DNA of 64,000 nt from a candidate division FCPU426 bacterium (lineage in GTDB: Bacteria > Oederibacteriota > JAAXVQ01 > JAUVAV01). Each line of letters begins with the position of its first letter. Within the stretch, counting starts at the first letter, position 1. The notes under the pieces were generated by a model that saw nothing but the letters and a program-made list of their open reading frames with translations, had not been told where the DNA came from and searched no databases. The DNA lies in the NCBI GenBank assembly GCA_030591525.1, contig JAUVAV010000001.1, positions 1 to 64,000 of the forward strand. The letters are read 5' to 3'. Below, piece after piece: positions 5,768 to 57,045 of this stretch. Position numbers and translations under genes: made by a program.

Positions 5768-5924
5768 ATAGGAGTTTGAGCATTTAGTCATAGACTAATT
5801 GCTCAAACTCCAGAGCAATTGAAAATTGACCAATAGAGCAATATAAAAACTCAATTGCGGTCTATTTTCTATTGTTCAATTGCTCAAAAATTAAAAACAT
5901 CAGACTAATTGCTCAGGCCCATAG
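5768..5924 (-). repeat. 157-bp structured repeat, copy B
   Basis: Full-length copy ending GCTCAGGCCCATAG. The core on the minus strand reads AATAGACCGCAATTGAG, 63 nt from its 5' end, the same spacing as in copy D. The last five codons and the TAG stop of the Nudix gene fall inside this element. Confidence 0.87.
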
Positions 5925-8980: not shown

Positions 8981-9117
8981 CTAGGAGCCTGAGCAATTAG
9001 TTGCTCAGGCTTCAGAGCATTTGAGATTCGATAGTAGAAATTAGATAAAATATCTCAAATGCGGTCTACTTTCCACTATCTACTCTCAAAAAACCGACTA
9101 AATGCTCAAGCTCCTAG
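8981..9117 (-). repeat. structured repeat of the 157-bp family, short copy C
   Basis: 137 bp bounded by CTAGGAG and CTCCTAG. It is shorter than A, B and D both in the terminal hairpin (GCCTGAGCAA/TTGCTCAGGC) and in the 5' arm. The core on the minus strand reads GTAGACCGCATTTGAGAT, and its partner arm reads ATCTCAAATGC in a slightly mismatched form, so the stem base A has become T on one side with the matching change on the other. It lies just upstream of metX. Confidence 0.82.
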
Positions 9118-9260: not shown

Positions 9261-9393
9261 ATCATTCCGAGGAAGCGAAACGACCGAGGAATCTCCTTGA
9301 AAATCAGGGTTTTTAGAGATTCCTCGCTGCGCTCGGAATGACAAAGCGTGAGAATCCCGTTAAAAAAGGCTTTCCGCAACAGAAACTAACTCA
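9261..9393. repeat. dispersed TCCTCG...CGAGGA inverted repeat
   Basis: TCATTCCGAGGAAGC and AGATTCCTCGCTGCGCTCGG-AATGA form an imperfect inverted repeat, followed by a shared tail containing CTTTCCGCAACAGAAACTAA. Near-identical sequence recurs at 57080-57213, and a shorter piece at 32190-32265. This repeat type is widespread in bacterial intergenic DNA. The rest of the 9118-9471 interval shows no gene. Confidence 0.75.
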
Positions 9394-10293: not shown

Positions 10294-10317
10294 CCCGGGA
10301 AGAGGTTAGCGGGTTAC

Positions 10318-10474
10318 GTAACCTTTCCGTTATGGTACTAAAATCGCATTGTGATAAGTAAGCGTTGAGAAAAGAAAATCGAAAATTGACCGCATTTGAA
10401 TATTATTATCTAGGTTTAAGGTTCAAATGCTTTGTAACCTATCAGTCATATTAGTACCATGACTGATAGGTTAC
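10318..10474 (+). repeat. structured repeat, diverged subfamily, copy F
   Basis: Bounded by GTAACC and GGTTAC. It holds GAAAATTGACCGCATTTGAA, the matching arm TTCAAATGC (about 10431) and a terminal hairpin TAACCTATCAGTCAT / ATGACTGATAGGTTA. Copy G at 54846-55002 has the same order of parts. The terminal hairpin lies between the convergent rhomboid and H1-like lipoprotein genes and could also terminate transcription. Confidence 0.82.
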
Positions 10475-10478
10475 CGGG

Positions 10479-11489
10479 TTACCCGGTGTTTTGTTTGGGA
10501 AATGGTAGAATTTTTGCCTTTTTCACGGTCTTTTTAGCGGTCTTCTTCACGGTCTTCTTCACGGTCTTCTTCACGGCCTTTTTCACGGCCTTCTTCACGG
10601 TCTTCTTCACGGCCTTCTTCACGGTCTTCTTCACGGTCTTATACCTGCTTATTTTTTTTCTCCGGACTGCCTTTACGCGCAGCGCGGTAACAGGTTTTAT
10701 CTCTATCGGCTCTTCTTTTGGTTCCTCCCTAACCTCGCTTATTGCCTTTGTTTCTACCGGCACCTCGGGTTGGAGCTCTGTTTTTTTCTCTGCTTCAGGA
10801 AGAACAGCTGTTGGTTTTAATTTCTCCTGCTCGAGTTTATCAGTCTCATATTGGGATGGAATCCGGATTTCCTCGTCCGGTGGTCTTTCCACCATTTTCC
10901 CTGGTTTGCGTCTTTGCTGGGTTCGGCGCCAATATAAATAAACCACTGTACTTAATAAAACGAATACAATTAAAATCATTGCCAGCCAACCAGCAGTTCC
11001 GGACCTCGTATCAGCGGTTGATATCGGCCTGCGGGCTGCCATTACAGACGGAATTGGCGTAGGGGTATACATAATCTCGTCGCCCGGAATCAAAGGAGGA
11101 AGAGCAGCCGTATCTTCAACCGCTTCGGCTTGGTCGCTTTCCCTCCCAGTCGTAAATTCTTCTTCCCAAGTATCCTCAGGTTCATAGACCCCGGGCGAAG
11201 ACACCGGAACAACGGGGACTCGGCTTATCGTTGGAAACGGCGTGGGTTGCAACTTCGGAGTGGGTTTTGGGGATGGTTCAATCCAGGGAGTTTGTTCCGG
11301 GATCGCTCCTTCGGCTTCGCTCCCTTCGGCTTCGCTCAGGACAGGCAGCATCGGTGAAGCCGGGGTGGCAATGACGGCCGGAGTAGGCGGCAAATCCTCT
11401 GATTTAATGGTTTCTTTAGATGGCGCGCAAGAAATCACCAAGCATAATCCAATAGAAAATAGAGCATAATAAATTTTCTTATTAGCCAT
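10479..11489 (-). CDS. lipoprotein/membrane protein with histone-H1-like lysine tail
   Basis: 336 residues, family not recognised. Parts in order: signal with lipobox ending L-V-I-S-C (Cys near 21); a Pro/Thr/Ser/Glu-rich linker to about 160; a transmembrane helix around 166-186 (LAMILIVFVLLSTVVYLYW) followed by Arg residues; an acidic-basic linker; and a tail of about a dozen KKTV/KKAV units. If both anchors are used, the tail lies on the cytoplasmic side and could bind DNA or another polyanion; this is inference. I start at the second ATG, five bases after GGAGG. It lies 18 bp downstream of the NtrC-type gene and is probably co-transcribed. A dispersed repeat encodes residues LSEAEGSEAEG in the linker. 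Confidence 0.7.
   Translation of the reverse strand: MANKKIYYALFSIGLCLVISCAPSKETIKSEDLPPTPAVIATPASPMLPVLSEAEGSEAEGAIPEQTPWIEPSPKPTPKLQPTPFPTISRVPVVPVSSPGVYEPEDTWEEEFTTGRESDQAEAVEDTAALPPLIPGDEIMYTPTPIPSVMAARRPISTADTRSGTAGWLAMILIVFVLLSTVVYLYWRRTQQRRKPGKMVERPPDEEIRIPSQYETDKLEQEKLKPTAVLPEAEKKTELQPEVPVETKAISEVREEPKEEPIEIKPVTALRVKAVRRKKISRYKTVKKTVKKAVKKTVKKAVKKAVKKTVKKTVKKTAKKTVKKAKILPFPKQNTG
10518..10640 (-). repeat. 12-bp coding tandem repeat (KKTV/KKAV)
   Basis: About ten tandem units related to TTCTTCACGGTC on the plus strand, encoding the lysine tail. Units differ mainly at one base (GTC versus GCC, Val-Thr versus Val-Ala), so the copy number is probably unstable by slippage. Confidence 0.85.
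11308..11345. repeat. dispersed CCTTCGGCTTCGCTC repeat inside a gene
   Basis: Two copies of CCTTCGGCTTCGCTC followed by AGGACAGG. The same module occurs between genes at 40683-40734. Here it is in frame and encodes LSEAEGSEAEG in the lipoprotein linker. Confidence 0.85.
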
Positions 11490-19020: not shown

Positions 19021-19050
19021 AAAAAATCGACTAATTGCTCAGGCTCCTAG
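19021..19050 (-). repeat. partial 157-family repeat, copy E
   Basis: Only the terminal ATCGACTAATTGCTCAGGCT-CCTAG end is present; the rest, including the core, is missing and replaced by the neighbouring repeat. The CTAG end coincides with the start of the next inverted-repeat element. Confidence 0.7.
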
Positions 19051-32550: not shown

Positions 32551-32707
32551 CTAGGAGCCTGAGCATTTAGTCTGATTTTTTTAATTCCTGAGCAATTGAA
32601 CAATAGAAAATAAACCGCAATTGAGTTTTTCTATTGCTCTATTGTTCAATTCTCAATTGCTCTGGAGTTTGAGCAATTAGTCTATGACTAATTGCTCAAA
32701 CTCCTAG
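32551..32707 (+). repeat. 157-bp structured repeat, copy D (reference copy)
   Basis: Bounded by CTAGGAG and CTCCTAG. The core ATAAACCGCAATTGAG begins near 32609, and its partner arm CTCAATTGC lies near 32652. The terminal hairpin has perfect 19-bp arms (32664-32682 and 32686-32704) around TAT. A second complementary pair, AATTGAACAATAG and CTATTGTTCAATT, crosses the first pair. It lies between the small ORF and pgi, opposite in orientation to copies A-C. Confidence 0.88.
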
Positions 32708-40411: not shown

Positions 40412-40587
40412 ATTCAATTTCCCCGCTCTGAAGAGCGGGGAATTGGATATGATCTGTAGATTATATAAATGTATATCCCGCATTTCGCTTTTTCAGCGAA
40501 ATGTCCCCGGCTTGAACATGCATATCGATAATAATCTTCATCTCATGTCACGAAGTCAAGCCGGGGAATTCGCGGTTAACATATTAA
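40412..40587 (+). repeat. two-hairpin repeat, copy H
   Basis: Hairpin 1: CCCCGCTCT-GA-AGAGCGGGG. Shared AATTGGATATGATCTGTAGA follows. An extra hairpin CATTTCGCT/AGCGAAATG is present only in this copy. Hairpin 2 has arms TCCCCGGCTTGA and TCAAGCCGGGGA, then AATTCGCGGTTAACATATTA. Copy I at 49237-49397 has the same order. The layout resembles non-autonomous IS200/IS605-type elements, but no transposase is present. Confidence 0.8.
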
Positions 40588-40734: not shown

Positions 40735-40887
40735 GGCGAAACCAACGGGTGTGCCCGCCCAACAGAAGAATATTAATCCAATCTCAAGTTGATTGCTACA
40801 AAAATGATATTTAAAAAGCAACCGATTACTGATGTAGCGTAAGTGCTGTCTAAGGTGGCGGGTAGCCTGGCGTCGAGGAAAACAATC

Positions 40888-43800
40888 ATGCATAAAGTGA
40901 GTAATAGAGTAATCTTGACAGGCGTATTGATTATTGCAGGCCTGGCATTATTTGCCTGGCTGGGCATAAAGACCGGTAATGAGCAGGCAAAGCAGCCAGC
41001 CTTAAATCCCGGAAACCGTGTGGTAGATGCCATGGCAGTAAAAGCCGGGGCCAACCAGAGCTGGCTGGAACAAGCCCTGGCCAGTATCGCGTCTGAAGAA
41101 TACAAAATAAAGCCTGACTGCCAGGGTATACTGCAGGCACCGAACCGCAAGCAGAATTTCCGCGCATATTATAAACGCAGTGGTATGGAATTAGGCCCGC
41201 GCCATGCCGGAACGGGCGCAGCCAGCAGGGCACCTGCGAAGAGTGCCCCACTATCCCCTGCTTTGGAAAAAGCAGAGTGTGAAGGGGACTTTTCAAATTG
41301 GAAATTCCAATGGCAGACCGCGTATTTCGGAAGACCGGGAGCTGTAAAACCAGTGCCCGAGGCAAAGCCAACGGCTTTTGGAAACCGGGTGGAATACCAG
41401 CGAAAGGATATAAGCGAGTGGTATATCAATAAGCCGCAAGGCATTGAACAGGGATTTATTATTCATCATAGGCCAAAAAAAAGTAGGGGCGGGCCTCTGT
41501 TCCCGCCCGAACATTCATGTCCGCCCACTAGAGACGCGATTAACCGCGTCTGTATCATCTCCCAACCCATTACAGGCTTAACTTTAAAATTAACTGCTGA
41601 CTATAACGCCATAGACCTATGCGATAAGCATCAGGCAGTGGTCATGCGTTATGGCCAACTGAAAGTAGTGGACGCAAGGAATAAAAAGCTGTGGGCCGGG
41701 ATGCGCGTGGAAAATAATCGCATTGTCCTGGCTTATGATGATACCAGTGCGCAGTATCCAATATACATAGATCCCTTGATGACAACCCCGGCCTGGACAC
41801 AAGAGATCGACCAGGCAGACGCATATTTTGGTTATTCAGTAGGAAGCGCGGGAGATGTAAATGGAGACGGGTATGGTGATGTGATCTGCGGCGCGTATGG
41901 TTATGACAATGGGCAGACAGATGAAGGCCGGGCGTATGTGTATTTGGGCTCAGCCACCGGGCTCAGCGCAACCCCGGCCTGGACCGGAGAAAGCGGCCAG
42001 GCAAACGCAAGTTTTGGCACATCAGTAGGAAGCGCGGGAGATGTGAATGGAGACGGGTATGGTGATGTGATCTGCGGCGCAAATCGTTATGACAATGGGC
42101 AGTCAGATGAAGGCCGGGCCTATGTGTATTTAGGCTCAGGCAGCGGGCTTAGCGCAACCCCGGTCTGGACAGCAGAATGCGACCAGGCAAGCGCGCAGTT
42201 TGGCTATTCCGTAGGCAGCGCGGGAGATGTGAATGGGGACGGGTATGGTGATGTAATCTGCGGCGCATATTATTATGACAATGGGGAGTCAAATGAAGGC
42301 CGGGCCTATGTGTATTTGGGTTCAGCCGGTGGGCTTAGCGCTGCCCCGGCCTGGACCGGAGAGAGCGACCAGGCAAGCGCGCAGTTTGGCTATTCAGCAG
42401 GCAGCGCGGGAGATGTGAATGGAGACGGGTATGGGGATGTGATCTGTGGCGCGTATGGATATGACAATGGGCAGTCAGATGAAGGCCGGGCCTATGTGTA
42501 TTTGGGTTCTGCCAGTGGGCTCAGCGCAACCCCGGCCTGGACAGGAGAGAGCGGCCAGGCAACCGCATTTTTTGGCATATCAGTAGGAAGCGCGGGAGAT
42601 GTGAATGGGGACGGTTATGGAGATGTAATCATTGGTGCGGATAGTTATACCAATGGGCAGTTTAATGAAGGCCGGGCATATGTTTATTTAGGCTCAGCCA
42701 CCGGGCTTAGCGCAGTCCCGGCCTGGACAGGAGAGAGCGACCAGGCAAGCGCGCAGTTTAGTATTTCAGTAGGAAGCGCGGGAGATGTGAATGGAGACGG
42801 GTATGGGGATGTGATCTGCGGCGCGTATCGTTATGACAATGGGCAGTCAGATGAAGGCCGAGCATATGTGTATTTGGGCTCTGCCAGCGGTCTGGCCGCA
42901 AGCGCGGCCTGGACAGGAGAGAGCGACCAAGCAACCGCATTTTTTGGCAGATCAGTAGGAAGCGCAGGAGATGTGAATGGGAACGGGTTTGGTGATGTGA
43001 TCTGCGGCGCGAATAGTTATGATAATGGGCAGACAAATGAAGGCCGAGCATATGTGTATTTGGGCTCTGCCAGCGGTCTGGCCGCAAGCGCGGCCTGGAT
43101 AGAAGAGAGCGACCAGGCAGATGCGCTGTTTGGCTTTTCAGCAGGAAGCGCGGGAGATGTGAATGGAGATGGATATGGAGATGTGATCTGTGGCGCGTAT
43201 ACATATGACAATGGGCAGATAAATGAAGGCCAAGCATATGTGTATTTGGGCTCAGCCAACGGGCTTAACGCAACCCCGGCCTGGACAGGAGAGAGTGACC
43301 AGGCGGATGCGCGGTTTGGCATATCAGCAGGAAGCGCGGGCGACGTAAATGGAGACGGGTATGGAGATGTGATCTGCGGCGCGGATCGTTATGACAATGG
43401 GCAGACAGATGAAGGCCGAGCATATGTGTATTTGGGCTCAGCCACCGGGCTCAGCGCAACCCCGGCCTGGACAGGAGAGAGCGACCAGGCAAATGCGCTG
43501 TTTGGCATATCAGTAGTAAGCGCGGGAGACGTGAATGGCGACGGGTATGGAGATGTGATTGTGGGAGCGCCTTATTATGACAATGGGCAAACAGATGAAG
43601 GCCAAGTATATGTTTATTTGGGCTCAGCCAGCGGGCTCAGCGCAACCCCGGCCTGGACAGTTGATAGCAACCAGGCGGATGCATGTTATGGCAGATCAGC
43701 AGGAAGCGCGGGAGATGTGAATGGAGACGGGTATGGGGATGTGATCTGCGGCGCGTATCTTTATGACAATGGGCAATCAAGTGAAGGCCGGGCGTTTGTG

Positions 43801-45123
43801 TATTTGGGTTCAGCCAACGGGCTTAGCGCAATCCCGTCCTGGACAGGAGAGAGCGACCAGACCGACGCGTGGTTTGGCTGTTCAGTAGGAAGCGCGGGAG
43901 ATGTGAATGGGGACGGGTATGGGGATGTGATCTGCGGAGCGTATCATTATGGCAATGGTCAGTCAAGTGAAGGCCAAGCATATGTGTTTCTAGGCTCAGC
44001 CGGCGGACTTAACGCAACCCCGGCCTGGACAGGAGAGAGCGGCCAGACAAGCGCATTTTTTGGCAGATCAGCAGGAAGCGCGGGAGATGTGAATGGAGAC
44101 GGGTATGGGGATGTGATCTGCGGCGCGCATTATTATGACAATGGGCAGACAGATGAAGGCCGAGCATATGTGTATTTGGGCTCAGCCACCGGGCTCAGCG
44201 CAATCCCGGCCTGGACAGGAGAGAGTGACCAGGTGGATGCGCGGTTTGGCACATCAGCAGGCAGCGCAGGAGATGTGAATGGAGACGGGTATGGGGATGT
44301 GATCTGCGGCGCGTATTCTTATGACAATGGGCAAACAAATGAAGGCCGGGCATATATGTACTATGGCAATGATTTTGGTGGTCTGAGCGTGCGTCCCAGG
44401 CAGGTCAAGGCGGATGGGACCAGTCTTATTGGGCCGGCCTGCGCAGCGTCTTATTTGCCAAGCAACACGCAGGCCAGGATCAGGCTCTGGGCCAGGACCA
44501 GCCAGGGCCGTACCCGGGCCAAGGTCCGGGTCGAGACCGCGCTGCCGGGAAACAGCTTCACAGGAACTAATATACAAACCGGCCCAACCTACCAGGATAT
44601 CGGGGTTAGCGGCATGGACCTGGAACTCATTTTAACCGGATTAAATCCCATGCAAGCCTACAGGTGGCGGGCGCGATTGCTGTATGACCCCACTAATGCG
44701 CCGTATGGCTTGCTGCACAGCCCATGGTTTAGTCTAAGCCTGGCGTCCTTGGAAGGCGGCCCTGATTTTCGCACCGGGCCGTTCGCAGAAAACACACCAA
44801 CCCCTGTCCCTACCAGTACTTCTACCCCGGTTAACCTGCCAACACATTCCCTGGGTCCTTTTTTCAGAATTATGCATGCCTTGGCAAGAGTCTCCTGCGG
44901 AGAAAGCGCTGTCATGGAGATCAACCTTTCCCAGGGGAGCCAAGTAAGTATAAAGATTTATGATCTAACCGGCCGGAAGATTTCCACCTTGCGGGATGAG
45001 TATATGCCAGCCGGCCGGCATGAGATAGAATGGAACGGCGGCCAGGCAGGGTCTGGCATGTATTTGGTATACTGCGAGGCCGGGCAGCATAGGGCGCGGG
45101 GGAAGATAGTTGTGGTAAGATAG
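40888..45123 (+). CDS. secreted FG-GAP (integrin-alpha-like) repeat protein
   Basis: 1411 residues. An N-terminal hydrophobic helix (VILTGVLIIAGLALFAWLG) exports or anchors it. An N-terminal domain to about 305 ends with AQYPIYIDP, as in other FG-GAP surface proteins. Fourteen tandem 62-residue FG-GAP repeats (about 311-1178), each with the Ca-binding D-V-N-G-D-G-Y-G-D loop, should form beta propellers. Then come a fibronectin-like region, a Pro/Thr linker (about 1290-1310) and a C-terminal domain (VSIKIYDLTGRKI...GMYLVY) like those that sort or anchor surface proteins. Likely role: adhesion or matrix binding. I start at MHKVSNR with GAGGA eight bases upstream. Confidence 0.9.
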   Translation: MHKVSNRVILTGVLIIAGLALFAWLGIKTGNEQAKQPALNPGNRVVDAMAVKAGANQSWLEQALASIASEEYKIKPDCQGILQAPNRKQNFRAYYKRSGMELGPRHAGTGAASRAPAKSAPLSPALEKAECEGDFSNWKFQWQTAYFGRPGAVKPVPEAKPTAFGNRVEYQRKDISEWYINKPQGIEQGFIIHHRPKKSRGGPLFPPEHSCPPTRDAINRVCIISQPITGLTLKLTADYNAIDLCDKHQAVVMRYGQLKVVDARNKKLWAGMRVENNRIVLAYDDTSAQYPIYIDPLMTTPAWTQEIDQADAYFGYSVGSAGDVNGDGYGDVICGAYGYDNGQTDEGRAYVYLGSATGLSATPAWTGESGQANASFGTSVGSAGDVNGDGYGDVICGANRYDNGQSDEGRAYVYLGSGSGLSATPVWTAECDQASAQFGYSVGSAGDVNGDGYGDVICGAYYYDNGESNEGRAYVYLGSAGGLSAAPAWTGESDQASAQFGYSAGSAGDVNGDGYGDVICGAYGYDNGQSDEGRAYVYLGSASGLSATPAWTGESGQATAFFGISVGSAGDVNGDGYGDVIIGADSYTNGQFNEGRAYVYLGSATGLSAVPAWTGESDQASAQFSISVGSAGDVNGDGYGDVICGAYRYDNGQSDEGRAYVYLGSASGLAASAAWTGESDQATAFFGRSVGSAGDVNGNGFGDVICGANSYDNGQTNEGRAYVYLGSASGLAASAAWIEESDQADALFGFSAGSAGDVNGDGYGDVICGAYTYDNGQINEGQAYVYLGSANGLNATPAWTGESDQADARFGISAGSAGDVNGDGYGDVICGADRYDNGQTDEGRAYVYLGSATGLSATPAWTGESDQANALFGISVVSAGDVNGDGYGDVIVGAPYYDNGQTDEGQVYVYLGSASGLSATPAWTVDSNQADACYGRSAGSAGDVNGDGYGDVICGAYLYDNGQSSEGRAFVYLGSANGLSAIPSWTGESDQTDAWFGCSVGSAGDVNGDGYGDVICGAYHYGNGQSSEGQAYVFLGSAGGLNATPAWTGESGQTSAFFGRSAGSAGDVNGDGYGDVICGAHYYDNGQTDEGRAYVYLGSATGLSAIPAWTGESDQVDARFGTSAGSAGDVNGDGYGDVICGAYSYDNGQTNEGRAYMYYGNDFGGLSVRPRQVKADGTSLIGPACAASYLPSNTQARIRLWARTSQGRTRAKVRVETALPGNSFTGTNIQTGPTYQDIGVSGMDLELILTGLNPMQAYRWRARLLYDPTNAPYGLLHSPWFSLSLASLEGGPDFRTGPFAENTPTPVPTSTSTPVNLPTHSLGPFFRIMHALARVSCGESAVMEINLSQGSQVSIKIYDLTGRKISTLRDEYMPAGRHEIEWNGGQAGSGMYLVYCEAGQHRARGKIVVVR
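41484..41545. repeat. two palindromic repeats in frame inside the FG-GAP gene
   Basis: GTAGGGGCGGGCCT...CCCGCCC is followed by TAGAGACGCGATTAACCGCG-TCT. Both are of the kinds that elsewhere lie between genes. Here they encode a Gly/Pro/Cys-rich insert around residues 200-220 without breaking the frame. Confidence 0.75.
41821..44400 (+). repeat. 14 tandem 186-bp coding repeats
   Basis: Period 186 bp, from the Ala codon before F-G in each unit. Units are very similar in DNA, including silent positions, and vary mainly at the residue pairs around Y-x-Y-D-N-G-Q and before each F-G. Such uniformity points to recent duplication or gene conversion. Confidence 0.93.
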
Positions 45124-49236: not shown

Positions 49237-49397
49237 GGATTCAATTTTCCCCGCTCTTCAGAGCGGGGAATTGGATATGATCTGTAGAAAACCATTATTA
49301 CTACCCCGCTTCATCCCCGGCTTGAACATGCATGTCAATAATAATCTTCATCTCATGTCATGAAGTCAAGCCGGGGAATTCGCGGTTAACATATTAA
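49237..49397 (+). repeat. two-hairpin repeat, copy I
   Basis: Same order as copy H: CCCCGCTCT-TC-AGAGCGGGG, AATTGGATATGATCTGTAGA, then TCCCCGGCTTGA/TCAAGCCGGGGA and AATTCGCGGTTAACATATTA. Its last bases contain the TAA stop of the Yip1-family gene on the other strand. Confidence 0.82.
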
Positions 49398-54665: not shown

Positions 54666-54845
54666 ACAGCGGTTTGAATATAACAGTTTATCAAAAAGCA
54701 TATGATATTATTTTGAAAAAACAAAAAAAGCTAAATTTGCTAAAGTCGAGTCCCTTAAAATATAAATCATCTGGAACCAGAATAAGTCCGGCGTTAAATA
54801 TAGACAAATTCACCCTGATTTACAAGCCCAATATTTTGCCCTATT

Positions 54846-55002
54846 GTAACCTATTAATGAACGTACTAAAATCACATTGTGATAAACTTGGCATTGAGAA
54901 TAGAAAACCGAAAATTGACCGCATTTGAATATTATTATCATGTTTAAGGTTCAAATGCTTCGTACCCTATCAGTCATGTTACTAACATGACTGATAGGGT
55001 AC
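54846..55002 (+). repeat. structured repeat, diverged subfamily, copy G
   Basis: Bounded by GTAACC and GGGTAC. GAAAATTGACCGCATTTGAA is followed by TTCAAATGC and a terminal hairpin with 20-bp perfect arms (GTACCCTATCAGTCATGTTA and its complement) around one base. The ligA stop lies four bases beyond its end. Same order of parts as copy F. Confidence 0.85.
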
Positions 55003-55005
55003 GCC

Positions 55006-57045
<2,040 letters not shown>

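Follow-up and report, generated by a model that had tools for sequence, protein, structure and literature searches.

Four-helix-bundle proteins of the S23/IVP family are widespread and their structures have been solved; to our knowledge, no function has been assigned to them and the spread of their 23S rRNA IVS elements remains unexplained. These elements place an S23 gene inside an rRNA transcript and are excised from it by RNase III (PMC4990558). Here, a repeat from a candidate division FCPU426 bacterium (assembly GCA_030591525.1) is compared with this and related systems. The window, that is, the whole stretch of DNA analysed, covers 64,000 nucleotides (contig JAUVAV010000001.1, positions 1 to 64,000), and the whole genome comprises 2.70 Mb in 91 contigs. 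The repeat in question, element D, is on balance probably a MITE whose cargo is a structured module originating in a separate selfish unit at tRNA and tmRNA 3′ ends and captured by MITEs.

Element D (32551-32707, 157 bp) has exactly the features first described for it, namely CTAG at both ends, a hairpin with perfect 19-bp arms, a core (ACCGCAATTGAG, 32614-32625) and a partner of the core (CTCAATTGC, 32652-32660). In the leader orientation used below, which is the reverse complement of that adopted in the earlier note, D lies on the minus strand with its hairpin first. The terminal hairpin (32664-32704) is formed by arms at 32664-32682 and 32686-32704 around a 3-nt loop, with the terminal inverted repeat recurring in one arm, and the other terminal repeat, CTAGGAGCCTGAGCATTTAGTC, occupies 32551-32572. 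Stem b pairs a 5′ arm at 32652-32660 (GCAATTGAG, minus strand) with a 3′ arm at 32617-32625 (CTCAATTGC, minus strand), the latter being extended to 32614 by the GGT of a conserved GGTC block. Stem a, which interleaves with stem b, joins AATTGAACAATAGA (32594-32607) to its partner arm TCTATTGTTCAATT (32638-32651). The folding energy of D has a z of -8.7 against dinucleotide shuffles.

Elements A (2432-2586) and B (5769-5924), both on the plus strand in leader orientation, are 90-93% identical to D; A belongs to the same MITE family, and B has ATAG on both sides (5768-5771 and 5921-5924). Element C (8981-9117, plus strand) is a 137-bp variant with a CATTTG/CAAATG stem and the arm GATAGTAGAAA, and fragment E (about 19021-19050) is the module-side (left) end of an element of the D/C type. 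The earlier note had grouped these elements with two diverged copies, F and G, into one family of seven. This grouping does not hold, since two unrelated MITEs carry one module: F (10318-10474, minus strand) carries the module of D and has GTAACC ends and an 8-bp duplication (CGGGTTAC at 10310-10317 and 10475-10482), and G (54846-55002, minus strand) is the same MITE as F, flanked by the 8-bp repeat GCCCTATT/GCCCTACT (54838-54845 and 55003-55010). The module is all that F and G share with the D family. In agreement with the earlier note, no transposase was found among the open reading frames of the window, as judged by inspection and by a Pfam check of 10 proteins.

Several other features of the window were recorded. 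Neighbouring HEPN and nucleotidyltransferase genes in a HEPN/MNT toxin-antitoxin layout lie at 217-1240 on the minus strand, and a 1426-aa open reading frame (40843-45123), rich in Val-Gly-Asp and FG-GAP-like by eye, contains at least 14 tandem 186-bp (62-aa) repeats at 41650-44367. A 79-bp dispersed repeat family (GGAGATTCCTCGCTACGCTCGGAATGACAAAG) occurs at 9313, 32196 and 57135, with copies 66-82% alike. Another pair of hairpin-ended repeats, beginning with CCCCGCTCTGAAGAGCGGGGAATTGGAT and TCCCCGGCTTGAACATG, is located at 40418-40587 and 49246-49397, and stretches resembling this pair adjoin tRNAs at two loci elsewhere (L080 and L039).

The expectation that further copies exist was borne out on a much larger scale, with approximately 40 places in the genome matching D over most of its length. 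The end motif has 148 + 145 matches in the genome compared with 0-1 in the control, the core 112 compared with 0, and the exact core module 110 compared with 0. D, A, B and C constitute one MITE-like family with CTAGGAG...CTCCTAG ends and a TA-centred, usually CTAG, target. Both types carry terminal inverted repeats, CTAGGAG in D/C and GTAACC in F. F-type copies have flanking repeats of about 8 bp (7 bp or more in 11 of 17 copies), whereas the two ends of D/C copies carry TA, for the most part as CTAG; the two MITEs have therefore been spread by two kinds of transposition. The orientation of D/C copies to neighbouring genes shows no bias (33:32), as expected of plain insertions and in contrast to the tRNA-linked copies described below. 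A search for an autonomous partner, confined to one transposase family, found no PF01609 (DDE_Tnp_1) gene in the genome; the genomes searched in this study are mostly metagenome assemblies, so that a missing gene carries little weight. Among composite forms, three loci (L029, L041 and L042) have two modules and one hairpin, and in a comparison of two loci from species that are sisters (L026 and L111), one has precisely one extra 102-bp module with a hairpin arm within a D element, a difference that could reflect either gain or loss.

Comparison with the sister species (G001) lends further support to the proposal that D is a non-autonomous mobile element, now with empty sites in addition to the enlarged set of copies. 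B is absent from G001, where CTCCCATAGGGG corresponds to CTCCCATAG-element-ATAGGGG with ATAG duplicated, and F is absent as well. The places of A and C are taken by other sequence in G001; the flanks of D lie on separate contigs there, so D offers no usable empty site. The same comparison revealed a module inserted cleanly, hairpin included, straight after the CCA of a tRNA-Ser gene, with no clear duplication. The tRNA array is shared with G001, where the elements are missing, so these insertions are recent and dispensable. Elsewhere (L080, 573-646), a tandem duplicate of a tRNA-Arg gene, itself decayed, is followed by a module of its own, and both are missing in G001.

The module common to both MITE types spans approximately 75 nt and comprises the hairpin, the stem GCAWTTGA/TCAAWTGC (stem b) and the interleaved second stem (stem a). 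The paired A/T exchange noticed in a few copies was confirmed in 46 cluster representatives, with 25 A-U pairs, 21 U-A pairs and no broken pair; in the same set, the next free pairs of stem b remain intact in 42 of 46 and 42 of 45 sequences. The A/T pair and these outer pairs are the informative positions, as the search pattern itself dictated the inner ones. The leaders of the four-helix genes discussed below, which were gathered through the protein family of the genes, with no sequence pattern involved, provide an unbiased set of stems: the sequences GCAGTAGAGA, GCAATGGGT, GCAGATTG, GCAGCCGAT, GCAATTGAAC and others each have their own complement before GCGGTC. In an arm-swap test, own arms paired better than swapped arms (p = 1.5e-8 for stem b and p = 0.003 for stem a), although own pairs are somewhat favoured in this test because the arm was picked on the same sequence. 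Since stems a and b interleave, together they would form a pseudoknot, predicted from sequence to be of the H type. A C-to-T change in stem b of many D copies yields a broken A-C pair in leader orientation, while pairing is kept as G-U on the other strand; for this reason, neither the strand nor action at the RNA level is proven. Between the small RNA and the folded single-strand DNA that the earlier note had left open, RNA is tentatively favoured because the module is tied to tRNA, tmRNA and four-helix-bundle genes. Searches with Rfam covariance models returned only tRNA, tmRNA and rRNA, with no match to the module.

The exact module pattern, searched over 84,980 species, was found in 101 stretches, nearly all from Omnitrophota, Firestonebacteria, Goldiibacteriota/FCPU426, Auribacterota and Planctomycetota. 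In a search of relatives, the module was detected at the levels of genus, family, order and phylum, compared with none of 100 genomes from other phyla, and a scan of IMG/VR gave no match. The view that D is an ordinary MITE only, with the core as internal sequence and the remaining correspondences as coincidence, agrees with the behaviour of D/C and F as MITEs, but two MITEs that differ in their ends and in their target duplications have the core in common, and it also lies outside MITEs in other phyla. These two facts refute it as a full account, and it retains almost no credibility.

Outside the MITEs, the module hairpin adjoins, and often takes in, the 3′ CCA of tRNA and tmRNA genes. The hairpin side adjoins the 3′ end of a tRNA gene encoded on the other strand at about 31 places versus 3 in the reverse arrangement, and tmRNA genes likewise carry adjoining modules. 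A strong hairpin at the CCA is present in 41 of 53 module-bearing tRNAs versus 8 of 47 others, and several of these eight represent degenerate modules. The sequences of the hairpins vary among copies, and truncated tRNA 3′ ends lie beside some of them. The constant orientation behind tRNA and tmRNA 3′ ends, together with the strong secondary structure, might indicate a non-mobile host RNA element, such as a 3′ processing, stability or termination signal serving tRNA, tmRNA and further genes, that was followed or copied by four-helix genes and MITEs. However, the element-free but otherwise identical tRNA array of G001 marks the element as recent and dispensable, the truncated tRNA ends fit poorly with a host signal, and most tRNAs in these genomes lack the module, which makes a host element unlikely.

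The truncated tRNA ends and, at L080, the decayed tRNA gene that is followed by a separate module could instead be explained by retroposition, in which a reverse transcriptase copies tRNA-hairpin-module transcripts in the manner of a bacterial SINE. However, no RVT_1 gene was found in the window genome or in G001, and the occurrence of RVT_1 in 9 of 31 genomes does not match that of the module. Retroposition was set aside because no reverse transcriptase was found in the window genome, and it must be considered very improbable.

A third possibility is a single-strand DNA element mobilized by a Y1/HUH transposase of the RAYT kind, which would recognize the hairpin and insert after CCA without duplication. 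Hairpins at the ends, the insertion at tRNA-Ser without clear duplication, the presence of four Y1 genes in the window genome and of others in most relatives that carry the module, and a RAYT beside the module at a few loci are all compatible with such an enzyme. By contrast, a strict module lies near only 2 of the 40 Y1 genes examined, Y1 genes are about equally common in module-free genomes, the hairpin sequence varies freely, and F is flanked by 8-bp duplications, which Y1 enzymes, as far as we know, do not make. This mode of mobilization is accordingly judged quite unlikely. Y1/RAYT genes were noted near the module at L107 (in the order tmRNA-module-RAYT), L113 and L310, and a systematic RAYT link was considered and rejected, as the association is promising at two or three loci and not systematic.

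When module loci are read in the direction of the tRNA, they often run into an open reading frame beginning MPFLFENLxVYQKA, which belongs to TIGR02436/PF05635 (23S rRNA IVP/S23 family; solved relatives 2gsc and 2rld) and shows a weak similarity to Avd (E 4e-5) that falls below the cut-off. In a sample of 69 PF05635 genes from 43 genomes, a tRNA or tmRNA gene lies within 450 nt upstream of 15 of the 21 genes of the linked subtype versus 1 of 48 others (p = 1.4e-9, the limits of the subtype having been drawn by motif once the sequences had been inspected). Stem b is located upstream of 14 of 20 subtype genes and downstream of 1 of 20. The gene accompanies a minority of module copies, in full-length units only. 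In the window genome itself, contig 78 carries one such unit, situated behind tRNA-Asp (L229), and a second, decayed unit lies on contig 90 (L230). At five loci (L186, L140, L234, L247 and L248), direct repeats of the module surround or precede the four-helix gene, with the order module-gene-module at L186; insertion may have happened repeatedly there, or the module may have been duplicated in tandem. The interpretation of D is changed by the copies linked to tRNA and by the associated protein gene, both beyond the view of the earlier note.

Under the captured-module interpretation favoured here, the source unit, read in leader orientation, lies behind a tRNA or tmRNA gene ending in CCA, opens with a perfect hairpin that starts at or includes this CCA, and then presents GAGC and stem b, one arm of stem a, the closing b strand with the invariant GGTC and the second a arm; full-length units additionally have the S23/23S-rRNA-IVP four-helix-bundle gene. 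The unit might form a 3′ tail on the tRNA or tmRNA transcript, in which case a cut at CCA, for which the adjacent hairpin would be a natural place, would free both RNAs and leave the host unharmed. The leader, linked as it is to the four-helix gene, is a putative binding site for the protein, and the agent that copies the unit would recognize it as well. Units that had lost the gene would spread as tRNA-linked modules, and at least two MITE families (CTAGGAG and GTAACC) may have taken up the module, the presumed direction of capture, whether by chance or for some benefit, and multiply it through ordinary transposition. Several points weigh against this scheme: the tRNA-linked copies and the MITEs may be unrelated and make use of a single RNA or DNA signal of the host, many D copies carry a C-to-T change that leaves stem b paired on the other strand only, the four-helix gene occurs with only a minority of copies, and no mover was found, neither reverse transcriptase nor DDE_Tnp_1 having been detected in the genome. 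A broader proposal, that such units form a class of selfish RNA-protein elements homing to the 3′ CCA of tRNA and tmRNA, with the four-helix protein and the pseudoknotted leader as their sole own parts, no known transposase or reverse transcriptase, and MITEs as parasites, is tentative and rather doubtful.

For S23/IVP proteins, the conserved leader at tRNA and tmRNA 3′ ends provides a concrete candidate for both an RNA ligand and an insertion site. A literature search of partial coverage found no paper on the module, its tRNA and four-helix link or its role as MITE cargo, and within that coverage the same structured module in unrelated MITEs represents a kind of cargo for which no description was found. 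Like bacterial MITEs, D/C and F have inverted ends, target duplications, tens of copies and no gene, whereas their interior is a structured module common to two unrelated MITEs and to tRNA-linked copies. The intergenic hairpin repeats and the Y1 genes of the genome recall REP/RAYT systems (REPtron), from which they differ in having no constant tetranucleotide and hairpin sequence and in Y1 linkage at only 2 of 40 loci. A four-helix protein beside a structured RNA also resembles the Avd and template RNA of DGRs, given the sub-threshold Avd similarity, but the genome has no reverse transcriptase and no variable repeat was seen. As in the 23S rRNA IVS, a selfish, stem-bounded unit lies in or against a stable-RNA gene and encodes a PF05635/TIGR02436 protein (PMC4990558). 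In contrast to that system, the units described here are situated behind the CCA of tRNA and tmRNA genes instead of within an rRNA helix, and they possess a conserved leader of the pseudoknot type and multi-copy, gene-less forms.
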